Assembly: GCA_030524125.1 (NCBI GenBank)
Contig: JAUNHB010000017.1
Coordinates: forward strand, 1 to 38,216
Length of the DNA stretch: 38,216 nt
DNA from: Eubacteriales bacterium
GTDB taxonomy: Bacteria > Bacillota > Clostridia > Lachnospirales > Lachnospiraceae
Reading direction: 5' to 3'
The position numbers and the translations under genes are program-made. Under the pieces are notes generated by a model, which made no database searches, had not been told where the DNA came from, and saw nothing but the letters and a program-made list of their open reading frames with translations. Positions 5,220-33,367 of this stretch are shown piece by piece (positions within the stretch are counted from its first letter, which is position 1; each line of letters opens with the position of its first letter).

Positions 5220-5224
5220 TGGTA

Positions 5225-5386
5225 TAACAGTTCAGCCAGCCGAAAGCAGCAGGACAAAATCGTGCTCGCACGAATTTTGGTCTGCTGCTTTTGGCTGAGG
5301 GAGCGCCAGATCATGAGCAAAGATAGCCGCGCAGCGGCGGGGAGCGCGTCAGCGCGGCTTTGCGAATGGCGCGGGCTGAGCTGTTA
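5225..5386 (-). repeat. Structured ~161-bp element, copy C (inverted, diverged)
   Basis: The 162-bp unit is bounded by TAACAGTTCAGCC (5225-5237) and GGCTGAGCTGTTA (5374-5386), which pair at 12 of 13 positions. Read on the minus strand it has the same plan as copies A and B: terminal stem, AAAG...CTTT closing pair around two GC hairpins (GCGC/GCGC and GCCGC/GCGGC), a third small hairpin, and a 61-bp long hairpin (5237-5297) next to the other end. Stem bases differ from copies A and B but pairing is kept. It fills most of the 324-nt gap between the two EIIC genes. A further small hairpin, GTTAC/GTAAC, follows at 5383-5397. Confidence 0.65.
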
Positions 5387-5417
5387 CTCTTCGTAACGTT
5401 CAGCCCGGCCGCATTCG

Positions 5418-5446
5418 TTGACAGTTTTTCTCAGATTTGGTATGAT
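5418..5446 (+). promoter_or_regulatory. Sigma-A promoter of the second EIIC gene
   Basis: TTGACA at 5418-5423 and TATGAT at 5441-5446 have a 17-bp spacer. The start point would be near 5453, leaving a short leader before the ATG at 5480. The second EIIC gene can therefore be expressed independently of EIICB. Confidence 0.8.
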
Positions 5447-5479: not shown

Positions 5480-6646
5480 ATGAAATACGCACATCGCCTG
5501 GGCAAGGCGCTCATGCTGCCGGTGGCGTGCCTGCCGGTGGCGGGTCTTCTGATGGGGCTTGGATACTGGGTAGAATCGATGGGATCCGCCGAGCTGTACC
5601 TGCTTTCGCAGGTCATGGTGAAGGCGGGTTCCGCGTTGATGGATCATATGAGCATCCTGTTTACGCTGGGCGTGGCCATGGGCATGGCGGACGAACAGGA
5701 CGGCGCGTCGGTGCTGGCCGGAGCGGTGAGCTGGATGATGATCCAGAACGTGCTGTCTCCCGCCAATGTGGTCGTGCTGACGCAGGGGAGACTGCCCTCC
5801 GTTCCCTTTGAGCATATCGACAATCAGCTGATCGGCATCCTGTGCGGCCTCATCGGCGCGCACTGCTGCAATCGTTACCGTCACCGGCACCTGTCCGGCG
5901 CTCTGGCCATCTTCGGAGGCAGGCGGCTGGCCGTGTTGGCGTCCTGTGCCTATGCGGCGGTGGCCTCGCTGGTGCTGTTGTTCGTCTGGCCGACGCTGTA
6001 CGGCGGATGCGTCTACATCGGAGAGTCGATGATCGGAGCCGGAGCTCTGGGGGCCGGGATCTACGGATTTTTGAACCGTCTTCTGATTCCTACGGGGTTC
6101 CATCACGCGCTCAACTCCATTTTCTGGTTCGACATGGCGGGCATCTCGGACCTGAACAATTTCTGGAACGGCACGGGAGTGTACGGGCAGACCGGCATGT
6201 ATATGACGGGCTTTTTCCCGGTCATGATCTTCGGGATGCCGGGGGCGGCTCTGGCTATGTATCACACGGCCCGGACCGAGAAGCGGAAAATGGCGGGGGG
6301 ACTTTTGCTGACAGCGTCGCTCTGTTCGGTGCTCACAGGCGTCACCGAGCCGCTGGAGTTCTCGTTTATGTTCCTCGCCCCGGAGCTCTTTTTGCTCCAC
6401 GCGTTTCTGACCGGGCTCTCGGCGTTTGTCTGCGCGGCGCTTCCGTTCCGGGTGGGATTTAATTTCAGCGCCGGGCTTTTGGATTATCTGCTGTCGCTGA
6501 ACGCGCCGCTGGCGGAGAATCCGTGGCTTTTGTGGCCCGTGGGACTGGGCTTTGGATGCCTGTACTACCTTTTGTTCCGATTTTGCATCCAGACCTTCCG
6601 GCTGCCGACGCCGGGAAGAGAGAAGGACGCGGAGGAGCAGACATGA
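5480..6646 (+). CDS. PTS EIIC permease lacking a IIB domain
   Basis: This 388-residue membrane protein is a paralogue of the EIICB at 3704: it shares the KALMLPVACLPVAGLLMGLGYW start, the TGFHHALNSIFWFDMAGISDLNNFW loop and the VTEPLEFSFMFLAPE region. It ends right after the linker (TPGREKDAEEQT), exactly where the paralogue continues into its IIB domain, so the phospho-cysteine domain is missing. It would need IIB supplied in trans, for example from the neighbour, or it may act as a sensor or a facilitator. The start at 5480 was chosen over an upstream one at 5360 because it matches the paralogue and sits just behind the promoter at 5418-5446; the GGGGGAG at 5464-5470 can serve as ribosome binding site. 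Its codon use is more GC-rich than that of the EIICB. Confidence 0.88.
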   Translation: MKYAHRLGKALMLPVACLPVAGLLMGLGYWVESMGSAELYLLSQVMVKAGSALMDHMSILFTLGVAMGMADEQDGASVLAGAVSWMMIQNVLSPANVVVLTQGRLPSVPFEHIDNQLIGILCGLIGAHCCNRYRHRHLSGALAIFGGRRLAVLASCAYAAVASLVLLFVWPTLYGGCVYIGESMIGAGALGAGIYGFLNRLLIPTGFHHALNSIFWFDMAGISDLNNFWNGTGVYGQTGMYMTGFFPVMIFGMPGAALAMYHTARTEKRKMAGGLLLTASLCSVLTGVTEPLEFSFMFLAPELFLLHAFLTGLSAFVCAALPFRVGFNFSAGLLDYLLSLNAPLAENPWLLWPVGLGFGCLYYLLFRFCIQTFRLPTPGREKDAEEQT

Positions 6647-6672
6647 TCGGGCGCATGGCTGGGAAGGCAGTG

Positions 6673-6833
6673 ATCCAGCCATGCATCTCGAAAGCCCGCT
6701 GCTGCGCAGCTTATCCGGCGCTTGCGCGCCTGCTTTCTCGATCACGGCTAAGCGCCGTATGCCCGATATAAAAAATGTCTGCTTACATGCAGGCATGACG
6801 CATCCATTTTTTATATCGGGCGCATGGCTGGAT
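6673..6833 (+). repeat. Structured 161-bp element, copy A
   Basis: The ends ATCCAGCCATGC (6673-6684) and GCATGGCTGGAT (6822-6833) are perfect 12-bp inverted repeats. Inside are a GAAAGC/GCTTTC pair enclosing the hairpins GCTGC/GCAGC and GGCGC/GCGCC, then ACGGC/GCCGT, then a perfect 17-bp stem (6761-6777 with 6805-6821) whose loop holds CATGC/GCATG. Bases 6676-6761 are identical to 16738-16823 in copy B. The element lies 26 nt after the second EIIC stop and upstream of the EIIA gene, and would be in the transcript. It could be a structured RNA or a short non-autonomous mobile element. Confidence 0.8.
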
Positions 6834-6931
6834 AGTTAGGATTTTCCATAAAAACGGGAAGATTTTGAATAGACGGGCGGGGCTTGTTCTGGTATTCTGA
6901 AAGGAAGAGGAAATATATCAGGAGGGTTTTT

Positions 6932-7420
6932 ATGTTTGGCATTTTTAAAAAGAAGAAAACGATTTATGAGATGAAGGCGGCGGCCGGCGGGGATGTGATC
7001 CCCATGTCGGAGGCCAAGGATCCCGTGTTCTCCTCGTGCGCGCTGGGGAACGGAGTGGTGATCCGCCCGGACGGGAGAGAGGTCGTGGCTCCGGCGGACG
7101 GCAAGGTGACGGTCACCATGGACGGCAGCAACCACGCGGTGGGGCTGGAGCTGAAGGGCGGAGTCGAGATCCTGATCCATATCGGCGTGGACACGGTGGC
7201 GCTGAAGGGGGAGGGCTTTGAGTCCCTTGTGAAATCCGGGGATGAGGTGAAGGAAGGCTCGGTGCTGATCCGCTTTGACCGGGAAGGGATGGAGGCCAAG
7301 GGCTACTGCATGGAGGTCATGCAGATCGTCATGGAGAACGAGGTGTCCGGGAAGGTACAGTACGTCACCGGACTGACGGCGGAGGCCGACAATAGGGGGG
7401 TGGGAAGCTGGGAAGCCTGA
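6932..7420 (+). CDS. PTS EIIA component, glucose type (Crr-like)
   Basis: This 162-residue soluble protein passes phosphate from HPr to the IIB domain. It matches the EIIA-Glc fold through VFSSCALGNGVVIRP, VVAPADGKVTV and ILIHIGVDTVALKGEGF. H83 in LIHIGVDT corresponds to the phosphorylated histidine of the family and H68 in SNHAVGLEL to the second active-site histidine. The start at 6932 follows AGGAGG by a few bases and gives the usual family length; the longer frame from 6884 adds an unrelated basic stretch. It is the only EIIA in the window and probably serves the EIICB at 3704, possibly with the IIB-less EIIC. It is separated from that EIIC by copy A of the structured element. A TGG-TATTCT sequence at 6890-6898 could be an extended -10, but no -35 was found. 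Confidence 0.93.
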   Translation: MFGIFKKKKTIYEMKAAAGGDVIPMSEAKDPVFSSCALGNGVVIRPDGREVVAPADGKVTVTMDGSNHAVGLELKGGVEILIHIGVDTVALKGEGFESLVKSGDEVKEGSVLIRFDREGMEAKGYCMEVMQIVMENEVSGKVQYVTGLTAEADNRGVGSWEA

Positions 7421-7433
7421 CGGAACGGACGCG

Positions 7434-7471
7434 GGGGCCGCGAAAAATGATCGCTCATTTTTCGCGGCCCC
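7434..7471. terminator. Long perfect hairpin after EIIA
   Basis: A 17-bp perfect stem (7434-7450 with 7455-7471) closes on a 4-base loop, with an A-rich 5' arm and T-rich 3' arm near the apex and GC pairs at the base. It separates the PTS block from the plsX operon. The U-run lies inside the stem, so the termination mechanism may not be the standard one. Confidence 0.65.
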
Positions 7472-7504
7472 GTCTGTGTATACGGGAACCGGACGCGCGG
7501 ATTC

Positions 7505-7548
7505 TTTTGATCAAAACTATTGACTTCACGAAAGTGTTTTCGTATTAT
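7505..7548 (+). promoter_or_regulatory. plsX operon promoter with two palindromes
   Basis: TTGACT (7520-7525) and TATTAT (7543-7548) have a 17-bp spacer. A perfect palindrome, TTTTGATCAAAA (7505-7516), lies just before the -35, and an inverted repeat, ACGAAA-GTGT-TTTCGT (7528-7543), fills the spacer between -35 and -10. The second is a classic repressor position. The regulator is unknown; lipid-synthesis regulators such as FapR or FabT are candidates by context only. Confidence 0.65.
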
Positions 7549-7615
7549 GGTATAGATAGCGCGGACGGACGGGAGAGAGCATCCGGTCAGGACGCGCCGG
7601 TAAGGAGGAAGAAAG

Positions 7616-8668
7616 ATGCAGGAGCTGATAAGAGTGGCCGTGGACGCCATGGGAGGAGACAACGCGCCCTCCGAGATCGTCAAAGGAGCCGTGGAGGCGC
7701 TGGACGCCAGAGCGGATCTGAAGATCTTGCTGGTGGGCCGCGAGGAGGACGTGCGCAGAGAGCTTTCCGGATATTCCTATGACGCCGCCCGGGTGGAGGT
7801 AGTGAACGCCAGCGAGGTCATCGAGATGGCGGAGCCGCCCGTACAGGCCATCCGCACAAAGAAGGATTCCTCGATCGTCGTCGCCATGAAGCTGGTGAAG
7901 AACGGGGAGGCGGACGCGTTTGTGGGAGCCGGAAGCACGGGAGCGGTCCTCGTGGGAGGCCAGCTCATCGTAGGAAGACTCAAGGGCGTGGAGCGCCCGC
8001 CTCTTGCGCCTCTTCTTCCCACCGCAAAAGGGGCTTCTCTGCTGATCGACTGCGGAGCCAACGTGGATGCGAGGCCCTCTCATCTGGTCCAGTTCGCAAA
8101 GATGGGTTCCATTTATATGGAGAACATTATGGGCGTCAAAAACCCGAGAGTCGCCATCGTGAACATCGGGGCCGAGGAGGAGAAGGGCAACGCGCTGGTG
8201 AAGGAGACATTCCCGCTCCTGAAGGCATGTCAGGACATCAATTTTATCGGAAGCATTGAAGCGCGCGACATCCCGACCGGGTATGCGGACGTGATCGTTT
8301 GCGAGGCCTTTGCGGGAAACATCATTCTGAAGCTGTACGAGGGAGTGGGCGCGACGCTGATCTCCATGGTGAAGGAGGGCATGATGAGCTCTCTTCGCAG
8401 CAAGATCGGGGCGCTGCTGGTCAAGCCGGCGCTCAAGAGCACGCTGAAGCAGTTCGACACAAGCCAGCACGGAGGAGCTCCGCTTCTGGGGCTTAAAGGT
8501 CTGGTGGTGAAGACGCACGGAAGCTCCAAGGCGACGGAGATCCGCAATTCCGTCCTTCAGTGCGCGACTTTCGTCGAGCAGGGGATGAATGAAAAAATCA
8601 AAGCCGGGATACAGGCGGAAGAAAAGAAGGAAGAAAATCAGGAAGGAATGAGAGATCATGGAATTTGA
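7616..8668 (+). CDS. plsX: Phosphate acyltransferase PlsX
   Basis: This 350-residue enzyme converts acyl-ACP to acyl-phosphate, the donor for the first acylation of glycerol-3-phosphate in phospholipid synthesis, at the inner face of the membrane. The signatures are [19 protein letters not shown] at the start, [36 protein letters not shown], and [16 protein letters not shown] near the C-terminus. The length is normal for the family (about 330-350). AAGGAGG at 7602-7608 stands 7 nt before the ATG. The end overlaps acpP by 11 nt, so the two are translationally coupled, in line with the need for ACP as acyl carrier. A promoter with palindromic operators lies upstream. Confidence 0.97.
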
Positions 8669-8888
8669 GAAATTACAGGAGATCATCGCGGAGGTGCTGA
8701 ATGTGGATCCGGAGGAGATTACGACGGAGACCAAGTTTGTGGACGATCTGGGAGCGGATTCTCTGGATGTGTTCCAGATTATTATGGGTATCGAAGAGGA
8801 GTTTGATATCGAGATCTCAAATGAAGATGCAGAGAAGATTGTAACCGTCGGGGACGCTGTCGAGCAGATTAAAAATGCATTAAACTAG
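8658..8888 (+). CDS. acpP: Acyl carrier protein
   Basis: This 76-residue acidic protein carries the growing fatty-acyl chain on a 4'-phosphopantetheine arm. S35 in the motif [14 protein letters not shown] is the attachment serine, and the downstream stretch [16 protein letters not shown] is typical of primary-metabolism ACPs. It overlaps the 3' end of plsX by 11 nt and is followed by a terminator-like hairpin before rnc. It differs clearly from the second carrier protein at 21475, which has LGFTSFD at the same site and belongs to a separate cluster. Confidence 0.97.
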
Positions 8889-8895
8889 ATCAGGG

Positions 8896-8925
8896 GGTGT
8901 TGCAGGTTCCTGCAGCACCTTTTTT
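8896..8925 (+). terminator. Terminator/attenuator between acpP and rnc
   Basis: GGTGTTGCAGG (8896-8906) pairs with CCTGCAGCACC (8909-8919; one G-U), followed by six Ts (8920-8925). It meets the criteria of an intrinsic terminator and ends just before the rnc ribosome binding site, so it probably lowers read-through and raises the acpP to rnc ratio. Confidence 0.85.
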
Positions 8926-8938
8926 AAAGGAGAAAACA

Positions 8939-9625
8939 ATGGACAAGATTCTTCTGACAAAGCTGGAGGAGAAGATCGGATACCGGTTTGCGGACAAGGG
9001 GCTTCTCAGACAGGCCATGAGCCACAGCTCCTATGTCAACGAACGCCATATGGGGAAGCTTCGCAGCAACGAGCGTCTGGAATTTCTGGGGGACGCGGTG
9101 CTGGAGCTGGTCACCAGCGAACATCTGTACCGCCATTTTCCACAGATGCCGGAGGGGGACGCCACGAAGATGCGGGCGAGCATCGTGTGCGAGCAGACGC
9201 TGGCCTTCTGCGCCAGGGCGATCCCGCTGGGAGACTACATCCTGCTGGGGAGAGGCGAGGAGAGCAGCGGAGGACGCGCGAGGGCGTCCATCACGTCGGA
9301 CGCCTGCGAGGCGCTGATCGGAGCCATCTATCTGGACGGTGGTTTTACTAACGCAAAAGATTTTATCTGCCGGTTCATCCTGAACGATCTGGAGAACAAG
9401 CAGCTCTTTTTTGATAGTAAGACCATTTTGCAGGAGCGGATCCAGGCGCACCATGAGGAGAGCCTGCACTATGAGCTGGTGGGAGAGGAAGGCCCCGATC
9501 ACCAGAAGAGCTTCGTGGTGGAGGCCATGCTGGGGGAGAAGGTCATCGGCCGGGGCAAGGGCCGCACAAAGAAAGCGGCGGAGCAGGAGGCGGCTTACCA
9601 CGCCCTGACGGGACAGGACACTTAG
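8939..9625 (+). CDS. rnc: Ribonuclease III
   Basis: This 228-residue double-strand-specific RNase processes rRNA precursors and structured mRNAs. The catalytic domain (about 1-150) has the signature NERLEFLGDAVLELV and the second acidic site in SDACEALIGAIYLDGG. The double-stranded RNA-binding domain (about 158-226) starts at KTILQERIQ and ends GRTKKAAEQEAAYHAL. The start at 8939 is chosen because AAAGGAG lies just upstream and the preceding in-frame codons fall within the terminator hairpin. It sits in the conserved order acpP-rnc-smc-ftsY. The long perfect hairpins in this window would be natural substrates if transcribed. Confidence 0.96.
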   Translation: MDKILLTKLEEKIGYRFADKGLLRQAMSHSSYVNERHMGKLRSNERLEFLGDAVLELVTSEHLYRHFPQMPEGDATKMRASIVCEQTLAFCARAIPLGDYILLGRGEESSGGRARASITSDACEALIGAIYLDGGFTNAKDFICRFILNDLENKQLFFDSKTILQERIQAHHEESLHYELVGEEGPDHQKSFVVEAMLGEKVIGRGKGRTKKAAEQEAAYHALTGQDT

Positions 9626-9650
9626 TAACAGGAATGAATGGAATGAGTAC

Positions 9651-12600
9651 ATGTATTTAAAAAGCATCGAGGTGCAGGGCTTTAAGTCTTTTGCAAACAA
9701 AATCGTATTTGAATTTCACAACGGGATCACGGGGATCGTGGGGCCAAACGGCTCGGGAAAGAGCAACGTGGCCGACGCGGTCCGCTGGGTGCTGGGAGAG
9801 CAGCGGGTCAAGCAGCTGCGCGGCGGCACCATGCAGGACGTCATCTTCTCGGGAACGGAGAACCGCAAGCCCTTAAGCTTCGCCTCCGTGGCCATCACCA
9901 TGGACAACGCGGATCACAAACTCCCGGTGGCCTATGAGGAGGTGACGGTCACAAGAAGGTTATATCGCTCGGGGGAGAGCGAATATCTTTTAAACGGGAC
10001 GGTCTGCAGGCTCAAGGACATTCAGGAAATGTTCTACGACACGGGAATCGGCAAGGAGGGCTACTCCATCATCGGACAGGGCCAGATCGACCGGATCTTA
10101 AGCACGAGGCCCGAGGAAGCCAGAGAACTGTTCGACGAGGCCACGGGCATCGTCAAGTTCAAGAAACGAAAGAAGACGGCGGAGAAGAAGCTGGAGGACG
10201 AAAAGCAGAATCTCCTGCGCGTCAACGACATCCTGACAGAGCTGGAAAAGCAGCTGGGCCCGCTGGAGCGCCAGTCTGAGAAGGCGAGAGAGTACCTGAA
10301 GAAAAAAGAGACGCTCAAAGAGTTCGAGGTACATATTTTCCTGATGGAGATGGAAAATATAAAAAAGCAGCTTGCGGAGCTTGACAAGAACCGGCTCATC
10401 ACGCAGGAGGATCTGGACGGGACGAAGGAAGCGTTTGAAAACACGAAGCTTGAGTACGAGCGGATCGAAAAGGAGCTGGAGGAGATCGAGCGCCGGATCG
10501 ACGAGGCCAGGGAGGCGGCCTCCGAGGCGCGCGTGGAAAAGCAGCAGATGAAAGGGCAGGCCGCGGTCCTGAAGGAGCAGATCCGCTCCGCCATGGCCAA
10601 CGCGAAGCACTATGAGGACCGGCTGTCGGGCATCGAGACCGAGCTTTCCGGGCGGGAGCGGGAAAAGAGCGGGCTCCTGACCGAGAAGGAAGAGCAGGAC
10701 CGGACGCTTTCGCAGGCGGAGCGGGTGCAGGAGGAGGCGCAGGAGCGTCTCCGCGAGATCCAGCAGCGCATCGCCGACAGCCAGACCAACATGGAGCACA
10801 GCAAGAACGAGATCATCGCCCTTCTGAACAGCCGTTCGTCCATCAAGGGAAAGCTCCAGCGCTACGACGCCATGACCGAGCAGATCCAGATCCGCATGTC
10901 GGAGCTGAGCCAGAAGCTGATCCGCATGAAGAGCGACGAGCTGGATCAGGAGGCGCTCCTTCAGGAGCGGGAGGCGGAGCTTGCGGCGGTCAGTCTCGAG
11001 CTTCAGGAAAAGACGCAGGAGCGGGAGGCGATCGAGCGGCGGATCGCCGAGCTCCAGCAGCAGATCACCGTGAGCCGCAAGCGGATGGAGGACGGCCAGA
11101 GCGCCTATCACAGGGAGGCGTCAAGGCTTGAGTCCCTGCAGAACCTGGCCGAGCGATACGACGGCTACGGCAACAGCATCCGGCGGGTCATGGAGCAGAA
11201 GAGCCGGGAAAACGGGATCTGCGGCGTGGTGGCCGATCTGATCCAGACCGATAAGAGATACGAGACGGCCATCGAGACGGCGCTGGGCGGCAGCATCCAG
11301 AACGTGGTGACCGAGGATGAGGAGACGGCAAAGCGGCTGATCCAGTATCTGAAGCAGAACCGGTTCGGACGGGTGACGTTCCTGCCGCTGACGGCGGTGC
11401 GAAGCCCGCAGGAGTTTGCGAAGCCGCAGGCACTCCGGGAGCCGGGCGTCATCGGCCTTGCCCACACGCTGGTGGAGACCGACGACCGCTACCGTGGCAT
11501 CTGCGCCCAGCTTCTGGGCCGTACCCTCGTGGTGGACCAGATCGACCACGCGGTGGAGCTTCAGCGGAAATACCGCTACAGTCTCCGGATCGTGACGCTG
11601 GAGGGCGAATCGCTGAATCCGGGCGGCTCCATGACGGGAGGCGCGTTCAAAAACAGCAGCAGCCTTCTGAGCAGGAAGCGAGAGATCGAGGAGCTGAAAG
11701 AAAAAGTGGACCGTCTCCGGCAGGAGCTCTCCGGCGTGCAGCGCAAGCTGGTGGAGCTCCAGAACGAACGGAGCGGCTGCTACTCCACGCTGGATCAGGG
11801 CGCCGAGGCGCTGCAGGCCATCCGGGTGCGGGAAAATACGGCCCGCATGAACGTGGAGCAGTTAAGATCCCAGAAAGAGGCGGCCGGGAGCGGCCGTCAG
11901 GCGCTGGAGCAGGAGGAGGCGGAGCTTCGCCGTCAGACAAGGGAGATCGAGCAGTTCCGAAAGGACAACCAGACGGAGCTCAAGGACTCGGAGGCCATGG
12001 AGAAGGCCCACACCTGCGCGGTGGAGACCTACCAGCAGCGGCTGGAGGAGGACCGGGAGAAGGAAGCGGCCGCGGTGAAGGAGCTGGAGGAGATCCATCT
12101 GGACACGGCGTCCGTCCGCCAGAAAGCGGAGTTCTCCGCGGAAAATTTAAGACGCGTGGAGAGCGAGATCGACAAGCTGCAAAGAGAGCGGGAGCAGCTC
12201 CGGACAGACCGGACGCAGGCGGACGAGGATACCAGAAGCCGCGAGGAGGGCGTGAGCGCCCTTCAGGAGCAGATCGACGCGGCGTCCGCCCGGATGGAGG
12301 AGCTGGAGCGGCGGACAGAGGAGCTCCAGCGCCAGAAGGAGGAGCAGTCCTCCTCCCACAAGGCGTTCTTCGGGAGACGGGAGGAGCTGTCCGGCCGCAT
12401 GAACGAGCTGGACAAGGAGCTGTTCCGTCTGGGAAGCCAGAAGGAAAAGCTGGAGGAAACGTCCGAGTCGCTCATGAACCACATGTGGTCGGAGTACGAG
12501 CTTACCTACAACGCGGCTCTGCCTCTCCGCAAGGAAGGCTTTGACAGCCTCCCGGCGCTCAAAAAAGACTGCGCGGCGGTGAAGGAGGAGATCAGGTCCC

Positions 12601-13211
12601 TCGGAAACGTCAACGTCAACGCCATCGAGGACTATAAGGAGATCTCGGAGCGCTTTTCGTTCATGGACGGCCAGCGAAAGGATCTTCAGGAGGCGGAGGG
12701 AGCCTTAAAGCAGGTGATCGGGGAGCTGGACAGCGGCATGAAAAAGCAGTTCATGGAGCAGTTCGCCCTGATCCAGAGAGAGTTTGACAAGGCGTTCAAG
12801 GAGCTGTTCGGCGGGGGAAAGGGCACGCTGGAGCTGATCGATCAGGAGGACATCCTGGAGACCGGCATCCGCATCATCTCCCAGCCGCCGGGGAAAAAGC
12901 TCCAGAATATGATGCAGCTTTCGGGAGGAGAGAAGGCGCTGACGGCCATCGCCCTCCTGTTTGCGATCCAGAACCTGAAGCCGTCGCCCTTCTGTCTCCT
13001 GGACGAGATCGAGGCGGCGCTGGACGACTCCAACGTGGTCCGGTTCGCGAAGTATCTGCATAAGCTTACGAAGGATACCCAGTTCATCGTCATCACCCAT
13101 CGAAGGGGAACGATGAACGCGGCCGACAGACTGTACGGCATCACCATGCAGGAGAAGGGCGTGTCCACCCTCGTGTCGGTCAATCTCATAGAAAATGATC
13201 TGGACAAATAG
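9651..13211 (+). CDS. smc: Chromosome segregation ATPase SMC
   Basis: This 1,186-residue protein forms a V-shaped dimer that organises and helps separate chromosomes together with ScpA and ScpB. The N-terminal head has Walker A GPNGSGKSN (about 32-40) and the QGQIDRIL region. Two long coiled coils (about 170-500 and 670-1010) flank a globular hinge (about 505-650) with VVADLIQTDKRYETAIETALGG and the GGSMTGG motif. The C-terminal head has the signature LSGGEKALTAIALLFA and Walker B PSPFCLLDEIEAALDD. The length is as expected for bacterial SMC. The ribosome binding site is weak (AGGAATG-like sequence before the ATG). It lies 25 nt after rnc and 14 nt before ftsY. Confidence 0.98.
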   Translation: MYLKSIEVQGFKSFANKIVFEFHNGITGIVGPNGSGKSNVADAVRWVLGEQRVKQLRGGTMQDVIFSGTENRKPLSFASVAITMDNADHKLPVAYEEVTVTRRLYRSGESEYLLNGTVCRLKDIQEMFYDTGIGKEGYSIIGQGQIDRILSTRPEEARELFDEATGIVKFKKRKKTAEKKLEDEKQNLLRVNDILTELEKQLGPLERQSEKAREYLKKKETLKEFEVHIFLMEMENIKKQLAELDKNRLITQEDLDGTKEAFENTKLEYERIEKELEEIERRIDEAREAASEARVEKQQMKGQAAVLKEQIRSAMANAKHYEDRLSGIETELSGREREKSGLLTEKEEQDRTLSQAERVQEEAQERLREIQQRIADSQTNMEHSKNEIIALLNSRSSIKGKLQRYDAMTEQIQIRMSELSQKLIRMKSDELDQEALLQEREAELAAVSLELQEKTQEREAIERRIAELQQQITVSRKRMEDGQSAYHREASRLESLQNLAERYDGYGNSIRRVMEQKSRENGICGVVADLIQTDKRYETAIETALGGSIQNVVTEDEETAKRLIQYLKQNRFGRVTFLPLTAVRSPQEFAKPQALREPGVIGLAHTLVETDDRYRGICAQLLGRTLVVDQIDHAVELQRKYRYSLRIVTLEGESLNPGGSMTGGAFKNSSSLLSRKREIEELKEKVDRLRQELSGVQRKLVELQNERSGCYSTLDQGAEALQAIRVRENTARMNVEQLRSQKEAAGSGRQALEQEEAELRRQTREIEQFRKDNQTELKDSEAMEKAHTCAVETYQQRLEEDREKEAAAVKELEEIHLDTASVRQKAEFSAENLRRVESEIDKLQREREQLRTDRTQADEDTRSREEGVSALQEQIDAASARMEELERRTEELQRQKEEQSSSHKAFFGRREELSGRMNELDKELFRLGSQKEKLEETSESLMNHMWSEYELTYNAALPLRKEGFDSLPALKKDCAAVKEEIRSLGNVNVNAIEDYKEISERFSFMDGQRKDLQEAEGALKQVIGELDSGMKKQFMEQFALIQREFDKAFKELFGGGKGTLELIDQEDILETGIRIISQPPGKKLQNMMQLSGGEKALTAIALLFAIQNLKPSPFCLLDEIEAALDDSNVVRFAKYLHKLTKDTQFIVITHRRGTMNAADRLYGITMQEKGVSTLVSVNLIENDLDK

Positions 13212-13225
13212 AGGAGGCGGGTGTA

Positions 13226-14164
13226 ATGTCTGAAGAAAGAAGAGGATTTTTCCGGCGTCTGACGGATGGTCTGGCGAAAACGAGAAACAACATCGTGGCG
13301 GGAATGGACGCTATTTTCAGCGGATTTTCGGATATTGACGACGATTTCTACGACGAGATCGAGGAGATACTGGTCATGGGCGACATCGGGATCAACGCCA
13401 CCACGTCCATCATCTCCAACCTGAAGCAGAAGGTGAGAGAGCAGCATATCAGGCGTCCGCAGGAGTGCAAGGAGCTGCTGATCAACAGCATCAAGGAGCA
13501 GATGCAGGTGGGCGAGACGGCCTATGAGTTCGAGCACAGGACGTCGGTGGTGCTGGTCATCGGCGTCAACGGCGTGGGAAAGACCACGTCCGTCGGAAAG
13601 CTGGCCGGAAAGCTGAAGGATCAGGGACGCCGGGTCATCCTGGCCGCGGCGGACACCTTCCGGGCCGCGGCGGGCGAGCAGCTCACCGAGTGGGCCAACC
13701 GGGCCGGCGTGGAGATCATCGGCGGAGCCGAGGGCGCGGACCCGGCGGCTGTGGTCTACGACGCGGTCAGCGCGGCAAAGGCGAGGAAGGCCGACGTGCT
13801 CCTGATCGACACGGCCGGCCGGCTCCACAACAAGAAGAATCTCATGGAGGAGCTGCGCAAGATCAACCGGATCATCGAGCGGGAATATCCGGACGCTTAC
13901 CGGGAGACGCTGGTCGTGCTGGACGGCACCACCGGACAGAACGCGCTGGAGCAGGCAAGGCAGTTCGGGGAGGTGGCGGATCTGACCGGCATCATCCTGA
14001 CCAAGCTGGACGGCACGGCCAAGGGCGGCATCGCCGTGGCGGTGCAGTCGGAGCTCAACATCCCGGTGAAATACATCGGCGTGGGAGAACATATCGACGA
14101 TCTGCAGAAATTTGACGCAGACACATTTGTAAACGCTCTGTTCCTGACGGGAGCCGGAGAATAG
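13226..14164 (+). CDS. ftsY: Signal recognition particle receptor FtsY
   Basis: This 312-residue SRP-type GTPase docks the SRP-ribosome complex at the membrane. It has the NG core only: a helical N domain (about 1-95) with LVMGDIGINATTSIISNLK, then the G domain with G1 GVNGVGKTTSVGKLA, the AADTFRAAAGEQL region, G3 DTAGRLHNKKNLMEEL and G4 TKLDGTAKGG. The acidic A domain of enterobacterial FtsY is absent, as is usual in Firmicutes. A GAGGAGG-like ribosome binding site precedes the ATG. In related genomes ylxM and ffh often follow; here ilvA follows instead. Confidence 0.97.
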   Translation: MSEERRGFFRRLTDGLAKTRNNIVAGMDAIFSGFSDIDDDFYDEIEEILVMGDIGINATTSIISNLKQKVREQHIRRPQECKELLINSIKEQMQVGETAYEFEHRTSVVLVIGVNGVGKTTSVGKLAGKLKDQGRRVILAAADTFRAAAGEQLTEWANRAGVEIIGGAEGADPAAVVYDAVSAAKARKADVLLIDTAGRLHNKKNLMEELRKINRIIEREYPDAYRETLVVLDGTTGQNALEQARQFGEVADLTGIILTKLDGTAKGGIAVAVQSELNIPVKYIGVGEHIDDLQKFDADTFVNALFLTGAGE

Positions 14165-14197
14165 AGGGACTTGCGACAACAAAGGAGAGTGGGGAAC

Positions 14198-15409
14198 ATG
14201 ATGACTTTGGAGAAATTCGAGGAGGCCTGCGAGATCGTAGGCCGGGTGACCAACAGGACGGGACTGATGTACAGCCAGTGCTTCAGCGACCAGTGCGGCA
14301 ACAAGGTATACCTGAAGCCGGAGAACATGCAGAAGACCGGAGCCTTTAAGATCCGGGGCGCGTACTATAAGATCAGCACGCTGTCCGAGGAGGAGAGGCA
14401 GAAAGGGCTGATCACGGCCTCCGCAGGGAACCACGCGCAGGGCGTGGCCTACGCGGCCAGAGAGTACGGCTGCCGCGCGGTCATCGTCATGCCCACGGCG
14501 ACGCCGCTCATCAAGGTGAACCACACGAAGGAGTACGGCGCGGAGGTGGTGCTGTACGGCAACGACTACGACGAGGCGTGCGCCCACGCGCTGGAGCTGG
14601 CAAAGGAGAAGGGCTACACCTTCATCCATCCCTTCGACGACCCGGACGTGGCGACGGGACAGGGGACCATCAGCATGGAGATCTTCAAGGAGCTTCCGCT
14701 GGTGGATTACATTCTGGTCCCCATCGGCGGCGGCGGACTGGCGGCGGGCGTGGCTACGCTGGCCAGAATGCTGAACCCGAAGATCAAGGTCATCGGTGTG
14801 GAGCCCGAGGGAGCCAACTGCATGGAGCAGTCGCTGAAAAAGGGAGAGGTCATCTGCCTTCCGCACAGCAGCACCATCGCAGACGGCACGGCGGTGCGGG
14901 AGCCCGGCAAAAAGATCTTCCCCTACATCCAGAAGAACATCGATCACGTGATCTCCGTACCCGACGACGAGCTGATCGTGGCGTTCCTCGACATGGTGGA
15001 GAACCACAAGATGATCGTGGAAAATTCCGGACTTCTGAGCGTGGCGGCCCTGAAGCATCTGAATGTAAAAAACAAGAAGGTGGTCTGCATCCTGAGCGGC
15101 GGCAACATGGACATCATCACCATGTCGTCGGTGGTGCAAAACGGCCTGATCCAGCGCGACCGGATCTTCTCTGTGTCCGTGCTGCTGCCGGATAAGCCGG
15201 GAGAGCTGGTCCACGTGGCTTCGGTCATCGCAAAGGAGCAGGGCAACGTGATCCGTCTGGATCACAACCAGTTCGTGAGCACCAACCGGAGCGCGGCCGT
15301 GGAGCTGAAGATCACGCTGGAGGCATTTGGAACCGAGCACAAGGAGCGGATCATCAGGGCGCTTCGGGAGGCGGGCTACACGCCGAAGGTCATCGGCGTC
15401 AACATCTAG
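14198..15409 (+). CDS. ilvA: Threonine ammonia-lyase with C-terminal ACT domain
   Basis: This 403-residue PLP enzyme converts threonine to 2-oxobutanoate and ammonia, either to start isoleucine synthesis or for threonine breakdown. K51 in KTGAFKIRGAYYK is the PLP lysine; SAGNHAQGVAYAA binds the substrate and GGGGLAAGVATLA the cofactor phosphate. A single ACT domain (about 325-403, starting FSVSVLLPDKPGELVHV) fits the short ilvA/tdcB class rather than the 510-residue E. coli IlvA. The start at 14198 is supported by AAAGGAG at 14181-14187; the open frame extends upstream to a TTG at 14171 that has no support. The following gene is homoserine dehydrogenase, so the pair links threonine supply and use. 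The symbol is assigned by family; whether the role is biosynthetic or catabolic is not settled. Confidence 0.93.
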   Translation: MMTLEKFEEACEIVGRVTNRTGLMYSQCFSDQCGNKVYLKPENMQKTGAFKIRGAYYKISTLSEEERQKGLITASAGNHAQGVAYAAREYGCRAVIVMPTATPLIKVNHTKEYGAEVVLYGNDYDEACAHALELAKEKGYTFIHPFDDPDVATGQGTISMEIFKELPLVDYILVPIGGGGLAAGVATLARMLNPKIKVIGVEPEGANCMEQSLKKGEVICLPHSSTIADGTAVREPGKKIFPYIQKNIDHVISVPDDELIVAFLDMVENHKMIVENSGLLSVAALKHLNVKNKKVVCILSGGNMDIITMSSVVQNGLIQRDRIFSVSVLLPDKPGELVHVASVIAKEQGNVIRLDHNQFVSTNRSAAVELKITLEAFGTEHKERIIRALREAGYTPKVIGVNI

Positions 15410-15430
15410 GAGACGGGGATGGAGGAAAAC

Positions 15431-16726
15431 ATGAGCAGATACAAAGAGATCAAAGCAGCGATTCTCGGAGCGGGCACGGTGGGCGGAGGCGTCTACAAGC
15501 TGATCGGGAGAAGACAGGACGAGCTGCCGGATAAAATACAGGCGAAGCTGACGGTCAGCAGGGTGCTGGTGAAAAATCTGAACAAGAAACGGGAGGGGAT
15601 CCCGTCGGAGCTTCTGACCGACGACTGGGAGAGCATCCGGAAGGATCCGGACATCCGGATCGTCATCGAGCTGATGGGCGGCATCGAGCCGGCCCGCACC
15701 TACATCCTGCAGGCGCTGGAGGCGGGAAAGAACGTGGTGACGGCCAACAAGGACCTGCTGGCGGAGCACGGCAAGGAACTGATGGACGCAGCGGAGAGAA
15801 GCGGCTGCGACCTGTATTTTGAGGCGGCTGTGGGCGGCGGCATCCCCATCATCCGGCCGCTGAAGGAGTGCCTCGCGGGAAATGAGATCACCGAGGTCAT
15901 GGGCATCGTAAACGGCACCACCAACTACATCCTGACGAAGATGACCAAAGAGGGCATGGATTTCGGAGAAGCGCTGGGACAGGCGCAGAAGCTTGGCTTT
16001 GCGGAGGCGGATCCCACGGCGGACGTGGAGGGACTGGACGCCGGCAGAAAGATGGCGATCCTCGCGTCGCTGGCGTTCCACTCCCGCGTGACGTTTCAGG
16101 ACGTGGAGGTGAAGGGCATCACGAAGATCACGGCCAGAGACATCCAGTACGCCGACGCGTTCGGCTACGTGCTGAAGCTTCTGGGCGTGGCGCGCAGCGA
16201 GGACGGCCAGATCGAGGCGGGCGTCTCGCCGGTCATGATCCCGAAGACGCATCCGCTGGCCAATGTGAACGACTCGTTCAACGCGGTGTTCGTCCACGGG
16301 GACGCGGTGGACGACGCCATGTTCCAGGGGCGCGGCGCGGGCGAATTTCCCACGGCCAGCGCGGTGGTGGGCGACGTGATCGCCGTGGCGCGGAACATGC
16401 AGTACGACTGCTGCGGCCGGATCGGCTGCAGCTGCTATAAAAACCTGCCCATGAAACCGGCGGGCGAGTCCAGACACAAATATTTCCTGCGGCTGATCGT
16501 GGAGGACCGGACCGGCATCCTGGCCGGAGTGGCCGGCGTGCTGGGCAACAACGGCGTGAGCATCAACCAGGTCATCCAGAAGCCCGCCGTGGACGGCGTG
16601 GCCGAGCTGGTGGTCATCACCGACAAGGTGGAGACCCGCCATCTGCACGACGCGCTCGTGATCTTCGGCGAAATGTCCATGATCCGCGAGGTGGCTTCCG
16701 TGATCCGGGTCTATACGCAGAAATAA
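15431..16726 (+). CDS. hom: Homoserine dehydrogenase
   Basis: This 431-residue enzyme reduces aspartate semialdehyde to homoserine, the branch point to threonine and methionine. It has an N-terminal NAD(P)-binding fold (AAILGAGTVGGGVYKLIG), the VTANKDLLAEHG segment, the catalytic core GGGIPIIRPLKECLAGNEI and GIVNGTTNYILTKM, and LGFAEADPTADVEGLDAGRK. A C-terminal ACT domain (about 350-431, RLIVEDRTGILAGVAGVLG) suggests feedback control by an amino acid. The start at 15431 follows GGAGG (15421-15425) by 5 nt; an ATG at 15419 with AGGAG at 15408-15412 is an equally possible start. It begins within about 20 nt of the ilvA stop, so both are in one transcript. Copy B of the structured element starts 8 nt after its stop. 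Confidence 0.96.
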   Translation: MSRYKEIKAAILGAGTVGGGVYKLIGRRQDELPDKIQAKLTVSRVLVKNLNKKREGIPSELLTDDWESIRKDPDIRIVIELMGGIEPARTYILQALEAGKNVVTANKDLLAEHGKELMDAAERSGCDLYFEAAVGGGIPIIRPLKECLAGNEITEVMGIVNGTTNYILTKMTKEGMDFGEALGQAQKLGFAEADPTADVEGLDAGRKMAILASLAFHSRVTFQDVEVKGITKITARDIQYADAFGYVLKLLGVARSEDGQIEAGVSPVMIPKTHPLANVNDSFNAVFVHGDAVDDAMFQGRGAGEFPTASAVVGDVIAVARNMQYDCCGRIGCSCYKNLPMKPAGESRHKYFLRLIVEDRTGILAGVAGVLGNNGVSINQVIQKPAVDGVAELVVITDKVETRHLHDALVIFGEMSMIREVASVIRVYTQK

Positions 16727-16734
16727 GCGGGGCG

Positions 16735-16895
16735 ATTCAGCCATGCATCTCGAAAGCCCGCTGCTGCGCAGCTTATCCGGCGCTTGCGCGCCTGCTTTCT
16801 CGATCACGGCTAAGCGCCGTATGGCAAATATGGGAAAGCTCTGCTTACATGCGAGCATGACGCAGCGCCTCCCCATATTTCCCGCATGGCTGAAT
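16735..16895 (+). repeat. Structured 161-bp element, copy B
   Basis: The ends ATTCAGCCATGC (16735-16746) and GCATGGCTGAAT (16884-16895) are perfect 12-bp inverted repeats. The length equals that of copy A, and 16738-16823 is identical to the core of copy A. The long hairpin (16823-16839 with 16867-16883) pairs at 14 of 17 positions; at eight of these the base pair differs from copy A but pairing is kept, and one outer-stem pair covaries as well (C-G to T-A). It lies in the 3' region of hom, before trx. Confidence 0.8.
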
Positions 16896-16938
16896 AGGTA
16901 GCTGGAGAAAGCTGGCTGTTTATTTTTCCGGACGGACG

Positions 16939-31484: not shown

Positions 31485-33367
31485 TGGAATATACCGGGAT
31501 ATTGAACCGCAGGCTGAAAAAGGCCGGGCGGGATTTTGTGAGGAGCCAGTCGGCGGCAAGGGCCGCGCTTCTGGAGGCAGGCATCGAGGAGATCCTGCAG
31601 GAAGCGGAAGGGACGGGGACGTTCTTTCCGTGGACGAAGGCGTGCGAACTGCTTCTGGAGAGGGACGGAAAAAGAGAGGAGATGCTTCTGTGCGCGGTCT
31701 GGGGGCAGGAGGCCGCGGGAGCGCCGGTGAGCATCAGCGAATTTCGCAGACTGTATATGGAGCTTTTCGGGGAGGAGCCGGACAGCGTGCAGTCGCTGCC
31801 GGTCTGGTACTATCCGGCGGACGGACAGATCCGGCTCTCGCCGGTGCTGACCGGGTGGCTGGAGGGCCGCGCGCCGAAGCTTCCGGACGGGACAGCGCTT
31901 CGGATCCCGAAGGAGGAGACCGCCTACGGACTGGGGGAGATCCTGACGGACGCGGGAGCGGTCTTCCGGGCGGCGGACGGCGGAGCGGGTCCACTGATCC
32001 TCTGTGTGGCGGGGGAACCGGGCAGCGGACGTACCTTCTGCATGGAACAGATCTGCAGGGAGCAGGGGATGACGCTTCTGCTGGCGGACGGGGACGTCTT
32101 CGAGGGGACGGAGCGGGAGCTGAACGCCTGCGTACTCTGCACGATGCTCTACGACGCGTTTTTCTGCATCCGGCTGGGACAGAGGAGACGCGACGGACTG
32201 ATGGAAGAGCTGGAGGACTGCTTTTCCTTTTTCGGCGTGGTGCGGGACAGCGACAGGGAGCTTTCGGAGCGCCCGTCCGCCCCGGTGGTGACGCGGACGC
32301 TGGAGCGCCCGGACGGCCGGAGCAAGGAGGAGATCGCAAAGGCACTGCTCGGAGAGCTTCTGGAGAAGCTTCCGGAGGGGACGAAGCGAAGCCAGATCAC
32401 AGGCAGACAGCTTCCGGCCGGAGATTACATACGATATGTGCGCGCGGTGCGCGCGGAGCTTCTGGCAGGCACGGCGGGGGAGACGCTGCTTCTGCCCCAG
32501 CCGGCGGGCGCGCGCCTGAACCTTCTCCCGGCCACGCGGACCTTCGGGGAGCTGAAGCTTCCGGAGAGCCAGTACGGACAGCTGCGGCAGATCTGCCGTA
32601 TGATCGGCGCGCGGGAGCGGGTGCTGGAGGAGCGCGGCTTCGGCCGGAGATTTTCCTATGGAAACGGGATCTCGGTGCTGTTCTACGGAGCGCCCGGGAC
32701 CGGCAAGACCATGGCCGCGCAGGTCATGGCCTCGGAGCTTGGGATGCCTCTCTACCGGGTGGATCTGTCCCAGCTGATCAGCAAATATATCGGGGAGACT
32801 CAGAAAAATATCGGGCGGATCTTCGACGAGGCGGCCAGATGCGACTGCATCCTGCTCTTCGACGAGGCCGACGCGATCTTTGCAAGGAGAAGCGAGGTGT
32901 CCGACGCGCAGGATCGGTACTCCAACGCGGAGACGGCCTACCTGCTCCAGCGGATCGAGCAGTACGGCGGCGTCTGCGTGCTGGCCACCAATCTCCTCCA
33001 GAACTTTGACGAGGCGTTCCGGAGGCGGATCTCCTACATGGTGCATTTCCCCATGCCGGACGGACGGCTGCGGGAGGAGCTGTGGCGGGACATCTTCCCG
33101 GCGGACGCGCGTTTGGAGCCCGGCGCGGACTTCCGCATGCTGGCGGAAGCCTTTGAGCTGTCGGGAGCGTCCATCAAGAACGCGGCCTTCCACGCGGCCC
33201 TCCTGGCGGAGTCGGAGGGAAGGCCGGTGGCAATGGGACACATTCTGGACGGCGTCAGAAACGAGTACGGCAAACAGGGCAGGAACCTAAGTCCCTCCCA
33301 GAGGGAGCTTCTGGAGGCGTTCGCCGCCGGAGGCAGTCACACAGGAACGAAAGGCGGATTGGCATGA
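31484..33367 (+). CDS. Two-domain AAA+ ATPase resembling eCIS (Afp15-type) ATPases
   Basis: This 627-residue cytoplasmic ATPase has an N-terminal module (about 1-150) and two AAA regions. The first has a degenerate Walker A, GEPGSGRTF (177-185), with Arg in place of the catalytic Lys. The second is complete: Walker A GAPGTGKT (402-409), pore-side region SKYIGETQKNIGRIFDEA, Walker B CILLFDEADAIF, then SEVSDAQDRYSNAETAYLLQRIEQYGG, sensor 1 LATNLLQNFDEAFRRR and FPMPDGRLREELW. As recalled, this second domain closely matches the ATPase of extracellular contractile injection systems (Afp15/PVC15). No sheath, tube or baseplate gene is in the window. The start is coupled to the coiled-coil gene, and the end overlaps the next gene as ATGA. 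Confidence 0.85.
   Translation: MEYTGILNRRLKKAGRDFVRSQSAARAALLEAGIEEILQEAEGTGTFFPWTKACELLLERDGKREEMLLCAVWGQEAAGAPVSISEFRRLYMELFGEEPDSVQSLPVWYYPADGQIRLSPVLTGWLEGRAPKLPDGTALRIPKEETAYGLGEILTDAGAVFRAADGGAGPLILCVAGEPGSGRTFCMEQICREQGMTLLLADGDVFEGTERELNACVLCTMLYDAFFCIRLGQRRRDGLMEELEDCFSFFGVVRDSDRELSERPSAPVVTRTLERPDGRSKEEIAKALLGELLEKLPEGTKRSQITGRQLPAGDYIRYVRAVRAELLAGTAGETLLLPQPAGARLNLLPATRTFGELKLPESQYGQLRQICRMIGARERVLEERGFGRRFSYGNGISVLFYGAPGTGKTMAAQVMASELGMPLYRVDLSQLISKYIGETQKNIGRIFDEAARCDCILLFDEADAIFARRSEVSDAQDRYSNAETAYLLQRIEQYGGVCVLATNLLQNFDEAFRRRISYMVHFPMPDGRLREELWRDIFPADARLEPGADFRMLAEAFELSGASIKNAAFHAALLAESEGRPVAMGHILDGVRNEYGKQGRNLSPSQRELLEAFAAGGSHTGTKGGLA

Follow-up and report, generated by a model that had tools for sequence, protein, structure and literature searches.

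Short gene-less mobile elements with a conserved branched fold on one strand in Clostridia genomes

Two copies of a folded repeat

The window, a stretch of 38,216 nt of contig JAUNHB010000017.1 from a Eubacteriales bacterium (assembly GCA_030524125.1), carries two copies of a repeat, copy A at 6673–6833 and copy B at 16735–16895. Re-measurement confirmed the first-pass annotation in that each copy is 161 bp long and that the two share an uninterrupted run of 86 identical bases. Both lie just downstream of a gene, as had been noted: copy A begins 26 nt past the stop codon of a PTS EIIC gene, and the distance from the homoserine dehydrogenase stop codon to copy B is 8 nt. Only mechanical ORFs are listed across the copies, the eight scanned window proteins around them carry names other than reverse transcriptase, and no promoter-like site was found adjoining either copy.

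The predicted fold of copy A is closed by a 12 bp terminal helix (6673–6684 pairing with 6822–6833). Within it lie a predicted two-hairpin domain with a CGAG/CGAG internal loop, conserved in alignment A2 (6685–6742, minus strand), a predicted small hairpin (6744–6758, minus strand) and a long hairpin, whose variable arms (6761–6777 and 6805–6821) pair perfectly over 17 bp and whose tip (6778–6804, minus strand) is conserved in the family alignment and of the CTGCGTCATGCYYGCATGTAAGCAG type within the family. The corresponding parts of copy B are a predicted two-hairpin domain (16747–16804) and small hairpin (16806–16820), both on the minus strand, and variable arms at 16823–16839 and 16867–16883. 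Covariance model R1 scored the copy A core at 174.7 bits on the minus strand and 25 bits on the plus strand, and the copy B core at 180.8 bits on the minus strand. The folding of both copies exceeds chance, with z-scores of −9.0 (A) and −6.8 (B) for the minus strand and −7.2 (A) and −4.1 (B) for the plus strand.

Comparison of the long-hairpin arms between the copies gave eight pairs changed on both sides, the number originally claimed, and six unchanged. Two further pairs had changed on one side only, to G-T wobbles, and one copy B pair was broken (G opposite G); these three had gone unnamed. The single covarying pair claimed for the terminal stem, a C-G to T-A change, was likewise recovered.

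The real outer ends lie about 6 nt beyond the 161 bp limits on each side and are of the form GTAAC/GTTAC, decayed in both copies, so that the elements extend over 6667–6839 and 16729–16901 (folding strand minus in each). Relative to the outer ends of the family, GTAACNRTTCAGCC, the copy A end CTAACTATCCAGCC (6826–6839, minus strand) has two mismatches and the copy B ends (16729–16742 and 16888–16901) have three and two; these ends were placed by position, a scan at three mismatches being at chance level for the window. A 17 nt leftover of a tandem neighbour of copy A is present at 6646–6662 (minus strand) and is identical to 6815–6831. A third element, on the plus strand at 5224–5387, shares this architecture and these ends (ATAACAGTTCAGCC ... 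GGCTGAGCTGTTAC, one mismatch per end) but is of a second sequence family (R1 61.7 bits, E 2.6e-14), and a fragment of a further family-2 end (GTAACGTTCAGCCCGGCCGCATTCG) was identified by sequence at 5393–5418.

Ends, target duplications and mobility

The genome contains 30 full-length copies of the family (E<1e-29), and genome-wide blastn returned 48 places, one of which was the copy A hairpin matching itself. The end pattern GYRACNRTTCAGCC occurred 121 times in genome G000, 168 in G067, 178 in G029, 20 in G312 and twice in G296, compared with zero in all five for the reversed pattern used as a control. At 161–173 bp, the elements are too short to encode a transposase.

Among 53 elements in which both ends conform to this pattern, an AT-rich 8 bp target duplication was present at 7/8 or better in 30 and was exact in 18, against 0.44 % and 0.11 %, respectively, for mismatched flank pairs. 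Per-base flank agreement peaked at a length of 8 (0.748, vs 0.434 at 7 and 0.394 at 9). Only 4 of 25 G000 copies reached 6/8 in a first flank test, and the duplication has been lost from both copy A (0/8) and copy B (1/8). Reading by eye of the equivalent sites in same-genus genomes found them free of the element at 8/8 hom-trx loci and 5/5 PTS loci. In genome G231, 15 end pairs were spaced 164 bp apart and, of five 152 nt cores read, four were identical and one carried a single difference. A nested insertion was seen at locus L145. The terminal repeats, exact duplications, empty sites in relatives and near-identical G231 copies together identify a mobile element, and the copies are non-autonomous, MITE-type transposable elements with no gene of their own, present in tens per genome.

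Elements sharing these ends with other bodies also duplicate 8 bp (8/8, 7/8 and 8/8 at three loci, L427, L435 and L416), which argues against mobility strictly requiring the fold. Elements in genomes G016 and G115 have the same ends and bodies that a broad model does not recognize, and several deletion derivatives of 43–105 bp retain exact duplications, so that insertion does not strictly depend on the fold. The deletion forms were not taken to have transposed by themselves, as the 43 and 76 bp junctions seem, by eye, to fall at short repeats and independent deletions could account for them.

The search for a mover covered two transposase families, IS66 and ISL3. The IS66 family shares the 8 bp duplication and ends starting GTAA with the elements described here. 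Its DDE transposase had no match in G000, G312, G303 or G029 and only fragments in G067 and G296, and in G067 the sequence after an IS66-like relic (L138), which we take to be the end of that relic, is GTAAGCGCTC rather than GTAACNRTTCAGCC; IS66 was therefore rejected both as the mover and as the source of the ends. The sequence GTAACAATTCAGCC near a second IS66 relic (L140) proved to be a family-2 MITE fragment and not the relic's own end. ISL3 was set aside because its transposase was found in none of four genomes. Larger inverted end pairs of 761 bp (L142) and 2.5 kb (L143) contain ordinary-looking genes and were dismissed as autonomous elements, and matches to a longer end pattern in G016 and G115 were, where read, elements of about 194–255 bp with other bodies. 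In G231, 13 contig ends with the same end run into two other interiors (seven and six times), and a longer multi-copy element with these ends is probably the autonomous partner, although reading 11 small contigs did not recover its interior. For one G231 end the only hits were 25-base partial matches to Lactococcus plasmids (E 0.09), and the other had no match among phages. Against viral contigs, a 19-base IS end had no match, and a 14-base end matched at least 120 stretches, judged to be chance for a 14-mer.

Conservation and strand of the fold

The first-pass annotation had proposed collecting further copies with a covariance model and asking whether their arms pair. Over 28 copies, helix 2 was paired at 96.4 %, and double changes were seen in 19 of 61 pairs, whereas shuffles averaged 9.7 and none of 500 reached 19. 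Divergence among these copies was 0.36 in the long-hairpin arms and 0.07–0.08 in the remainder. Across genera, 64 distinct sequences displayed double changes in 59 of the 61 pairs, with covariation of 0.657 compared with 0.156 when shuffled and at most 0.091 when slid; this alignment was fitted to the structure, and the shuffled and slid controls are not phylogeny-aware. Cross-genus compensatory change extended to the terminal helix, the small hairpin and the two-hairpin domain, including stems of 5–6 bp. Compensatory change has thus preserved the branched fold of one strand, both inside genera and from one genus to another. The fast-changing long hairpin would need its pairing and not its sequence, whereas the tip, small hairpin and two-hairpin domain are conserved and probably bind protein or are otherwise active.

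The folding, conserved strand is the minus strand of the window. Folding was better on this strand in 28/28 copies, and alignment folding gave −85 vs −66, −79 vs −60, −85 vs −78 and −71 vs −64 kcal/mol for the folding and opposite strands in four genomes. Wobbles in the arms were G-U in 39 cases and A-C in 4 (37 vs 4 over 27 distinct arms). Across genera the counts were 139 vs 57 (42 rows vs 8, with 15 ties), from an alignment (A3) built with a model of the folding strand and hence leaning towards it. As the copies are related, neither wobble nor covariation counts are independent events. Pairs predicted from the opposite strand gave G-U:A-C ratios of 23:22 in A2, 13:29 in G312, 2:13 in G067 and 7:9 in G029, and pairs common to both strand predictions gave 23:10, 13:6, 1:4 and 6:1, respectively; G067 is the one genome of the four that lacks the bias, and the wobble measure does not support the strand claim there. 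A retron-like reading of the terminal helix, short hairpins and long hairpin was rejected, since a retron-like order of parts is seen only on the plus strand, whose folding is poorer.

A covariance-model survey of 299 same-family and 391 class genomes, our own included, found relatives in 74 and 24, respectively. In three genomes of another family, relatives start 9–17 positions downstream of a 5S rRNA gene. A hit in a Roseburia hominis strain An869 record (L055) scored 59.1 bits with R1. Fold and ends are separable, with other genera carrying the fold with other ends, or the ends with other bodies. The suggested comparison with Rfam gave no match at gathering score in the window, and for 40 related loci the 15 matches among those listed all fell outside the element; the best sub-threshold matches at copy A were miRNA models. 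Copy A had no match in phage and plasmid collections, nor did a relative from genome G046 in the plasmid collection. Literature searches found no publication on these repeats among the papers listed, and GTAACAGTTCAG occurred in none among the matches listed.

Possible roles of the fold and relation to known systems

The initial suggestion, based on the compensatory changes, was that the repeats could be structured RNAs forming a family, or else a mobile element dependent on its fold. Each half stands in part, as an element that is mobile and as a fold that one strand has kept across genera. We consider it likely that the repeats are non-autonomous transposons carrying a selected structured RNA, or its single-stranded DNA equivalent, with the job of the fold itself inferred. 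An IS transposase with the same ends would move the elements in trans, and the body would be carried because the folded strand does something, most probably as RNA. This RNA would be made by transcription entering from outside, a placement that reflects the lack of promoter-like sites next to copies A and B.

The main alternative to an RNA form is that the strand does its work as folded single-stranded DNA, such as a form recognized in replication-coupled excision or insertion, which we regard as a real but lesser possibility. With DNA parameters, folding of the minus strand is again strong (z −8.3), no promoter-like site adjoins either copy, and single-stranded DNA would accommodate both a wobble asymmetry and GNA-type loops. 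However, an exact 8 bp duplication points to a transposase that makes staggered double-strand cuts and requires no single-strand fold. Gene orientation, counted from codon-scored ORFs, also favours RNA: in the two genomes whose copies are more diverged, 26 sites had the folding strand antisense to both flanking genes and 3 had it sense to both, compared with 7 and 6 in the two with more uniform copies (Fisher p 0.016, the grouping having been made after seeing the data), as if sense copies had been lost because the RNA matters.

Arm complementarity could instead stem from a mutational process, such as template switching or arm-to-arm conversion in a quasi-palindrome, with no selection on the fold. 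Long palindromes are known to be corrected arm against arm, and the arms here diverge about five times faster than the remainder yet remain paired. Such a strand-blind process is not expected to produce the excess of G-U over A-C wobbles in the arms, an excess not seen in G067, or to compensate the other helices across genera, short stems included, and we therefore hold it to be improbable. Least likely of all is that the repeats are no mobile element but regulatory RNAs or terminators of the host, recruited as a family to gene borders, for although the copies are intergenic, often right after a stop codon, and relatives in three genomes closely follow 5S rRNA genes, this reading sits poorly with the exact duplications, the near-identical G231 copies, the nested insertion and the absence of the element from both the A and B sites in related species.

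Among known systems, the OMEGA/HEARO and bridge RNAs of IS200/IS605 and IS110 sit beside a nuclease or recombinase gene. The present elements are analogous in that a putative structured RNA would reside on a transposable element, but their copies are gene-less, are flanked by 8 bp duplications and have no Rfam match at gathering score. The bcr1 repeats of the Bacillus cereus group, about 155 bp long, are likewise dispersed repeats with mobile-element traits, a likeness drawn by description only, and belong to a different host group. QMITE2 of Coxiella burnetii and Correia/NEMIS of Neisseria are gene-less MITEs with terminal inverted repeats and short target duplications, of 7–9 bp for QMITE2; prokaryotic MITEs occupy AT-rich intergenic sites and give stable stem-loop transcripts, and Correia transcripts are cleaved by RNase III (PMC10969869). 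As far as that account describes them, our elements resemble QMITE2 and Correia/NEMIS in lacking genes and in their terminal inverted repeats, short duplications and AT-rich intergenic sites, and differ in an inner fold that is multi-branched, strand-specific and compensated across genera; the strings 'covari' and 'clostrid' do not occur in its main text.

A broader reading, which we offer tentatively, is that structured RNA modules found Clostridia-wide ride on mobile elements with differing ends, the RNA being the unit of selection. The modules would be marked by the small, palindromic tip of a hairpin, a small GGCG..GCC hairpin and the CGAG/CGAG domain, and may be bounded either by GTAACNRTTCAGCC with 8 bp duplications or by other ends, in some cases directly downstream of 5S rRNA genes. 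If true, this would be a bacterial counterpart of eukaryotic SINEs, that is, a gene-less, structured and repeatedly mobilized RNA gene, whose activity (self-cleavage, or recruitment of a host or transposase protein) would still have to be found. MITEs are usually viewed as decayed IS scraps with an unimportant interior. In these elements it is the interior that has been conserved, as a branched fold of one defined strand that occurs together with different kinds of end. The existence in bacteria of mobile RNAs that lack genes yet have their own function thereby becomes a testable question, and a large class of short repeats between genes of gut Clostridia would gain a name.

Copies A and B and the repeat family in the source genome

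The two 161-bp copies described in the first-pass annotation, A (6673-6833) and B (16735-16895), were borne out, as was their identity over an 86-bp run. Its claim of 17-bp hairpin arms with eight pairs changed on both sides between the copies also held, but left out one pair broken in B and two one-sided wobble changes. Copy A is flanked by PTS EIIC and PTS EIIA genes, and copy B by homoserine dehydrogenase and thioredoxin genes. A 17-nt remnant of a tandem neighbour (6646-6662) lies upstream of copy A, overlapping the PTS EIIC stop codon by one base. A related second-family element (5224-5387, folding strand plus) shares its ends with A and B, differs from them in body sequence, and is followed by a fragment of another such element (5393-5418), also with these ends. 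Elsewhere in the window, a plus-strand ORF of 4851 nt (33364-38214) runs past the window end.

In the source genome (95 contigs, 80 % complete), blastn identified 48 places, one of which was the copy A hairpin against itself. R1, a covariance model built from 28 full-length copies, returned 94 rows at E<=1e-3, 30 of them with E<1e-29, and the remainder including truncated copies, opposite-strand hairpin echoes and the second family. A tandem array of four copies, three full and the outermost partial, was present on contig 48 (29804-30434), with an 11-bp spacer and arms that are unlike between some units. At C27:5904-6106 and C59:45768-45973 the small hairpin was swapped for one about 45 nt longer, which also looks self-complementary.

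Fold, covariation and strand

The body comprises a terminal helix, a long hairpin whose tip is conserved, a small hairpin and a two-hairpin domain closed by a CGAG/CGAG internal loop. Among the 28 copies, double changes occurred at 15 of 21 pairs of helix 2 and at 19 of 61 pairs of the whole structure (9.7 in shuffles, 0/500 as high), and divergence between copies was 0.36 in the arms and 0.07-0.08 in other parts. Across genera, 64 distinct rows, aligned by fitting to the structure and including a weak opposite-strand row and a weak partial one, displayed double changes at 59 of 61 pairs, with 93.6 % of cells paired versus 62.0 % when shuffled and at most 42.8 % when slid.

The conserved strand is the window minus strand. 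R1 scored copy A at 174.7 bits on the minus strand versus 25 on the plus, and the minus strand folded better in 28/28 copies, by a mean of 11.5 kcal/mol; consensus energies agreed in four genomes. Arm wobbles were G-U in 39 cases versus A-C in 4 (37 versus 4 over 27 distinct arm pairs), whilst wobbles counted on opposite-strand structures were even or reversed. On pairs common to both strands' predictions, the G-U:A-C ratios were 23:10, 13:6, 1:4 and 6:1 in the source genome, G312, G067 and G029, respectively, and by this measure the asymmetry is therefore unsupported in one of the four.

The folded strand would most likely act as RNA, with transcription that would enter from outside, because no promoter-like site was found adjoining A or B. 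It may be single-stranded DNA instead, as the minus strand also folds with DNA parameters (z -8.3). A mutational process rather than selection, as a source of the arm covariation, predicts neither the strand bias nor change in every helix. By codon-scored ORFs, and with the tandem array entered once, 18 of the 27 source-genome sites had the folding strand antisense to both flanking genes and 2 had it sense to both; the remaining 7 were of mixed orientation or missed a neighbour. The corresponding counts were 8 and 1 of 14 in G312, 4 and 4 of 9 in G067, and 3 and 2 of 9 in G029; the first two genomes differed from the last two at p 0.016, a grouping chosen after the data were seen. This suggests that sense-oriented copies may have been lost over time because a folded RNA would harm the operon.

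Ends, target duplication and a probable mover

The repeat family fits the usual definition of a MITE. The copies have the outer end GTAACNRTTCAGCC in common, and five genomes gave counts of 121, 168, 178, 20 and 2 for the end pattern GYRACNRTTCAGCC, with 0 for a reversed control. Amongst the 53 elements of the non-viral loci covered in which both ends match this pattern (decayed ends excluded), an 8-bp direct repeat was present at 7/8 or better in 30 and exactly in 18, versus a mismatched-flank background of 0.44 % and 0.11 %, and the signal was sharp at length 8. An earlier source-genome count that included decayed ends found 6/8 or better in just 4 of 25 copies, A and B not among them. By eye, same-genus relatives lacked an element in the homoserine dehydrogenase-thioredoxin gap (8/8 loci) and the PTS gap (5/5). 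At locus L145 (823-1189), a third kind of element, with ends like GTTACGATTCACAGCC, was nested within a second-family element. Deletion forms of 43-105 bp occurred in G067 (L342-L352), and several of them had kept exact 8-bp duplications. By eye, the junctions of the 43- and 76-bp forms appear to coincide with short repeats.

In genome G231, 15 end pairs were spaced 164 bp apart, and four of five cores examined were identical, the fifth having a single-base difference. Here, 13 contig ends (L396-L402, L404-L406, L408-L410) carried the 14-base MITE end followed by one of two other sequences (7 and 6 ends). The natural reading is that a longer multi-copy element broke the assembly, and this element is the probable mover of the MITEs. 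Its interior was absent from the 11 small G231 contigs examined, and searches for two transposase families, IS66 and ISL3, found none in the source genome, G312 or G029. The MITEs would be mobilized in trans by this unseen longer element.

Spread of the fold and its separation from the ends

At E<=1e-3, R1 had matches in 74 of the 299 genomes of the same family. Within the genus it matched 11 of 17; both counts include the source genome. At E<=1e-6, a broad cross-genus model (R2), built from a stricter 60 rows without the two weak ones, had matches in 24 of the 391 class genomes: the source genome, 14 of the same family, one of the order and eight of the class beyond. By eye, each of the 23 R2 loci examined had a hairpin with a short palindromic tip, which in most resembled AAGCTTGCTT or AAGTTTACTT. 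The exact tip pattern of the A/B family occurred in 12 stretches, assigned to Lachnospiraceae, Eisenbergiella, Roseburia, Hungatella or Clostridiales, all matched by R1 at E<=1e-6. In three genomes of another family (L358, L362, L375), fold relatives started 9-17 positions downstream of the 5S rRNA gene end.

Stable stem-loop transcripts of MITEs, some cleaved by RNase III, are described in PMC10969869. The A/B family is not described in the relevant passages of PMC2267715 and PMC2864571, and no description was found in the literature searched outside subscription journals and ISfinder.

This family shows both the marks of mobility and a folded strand that is conserved. Its fold and its ends can occur apart: G402, G494, G046 and G642 have elements that combine the same fold with different ends. 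Conversely, in G115 (L427 and L435) and G016 (L416, L419 and L422), elements that measure about 194-255 bp had GTAACAGTTCAGCC ends around other bodies, with 8-bp duplications at 8/8 for L427 and L416 and at 7/8 for L435. R2 matched none of the 13 G115/G016 loci searched at E<=1, some of which are possibly not elements. The bodies of L427 (z about -11) and L416 (z -8.6) were strongly folded, and CGAG...CGAG recurs in the G115 minus strand. Given these same ends and duplications around unmatched bodies, insertion does not strictly require the A/B-type fold, and something else must keep it.
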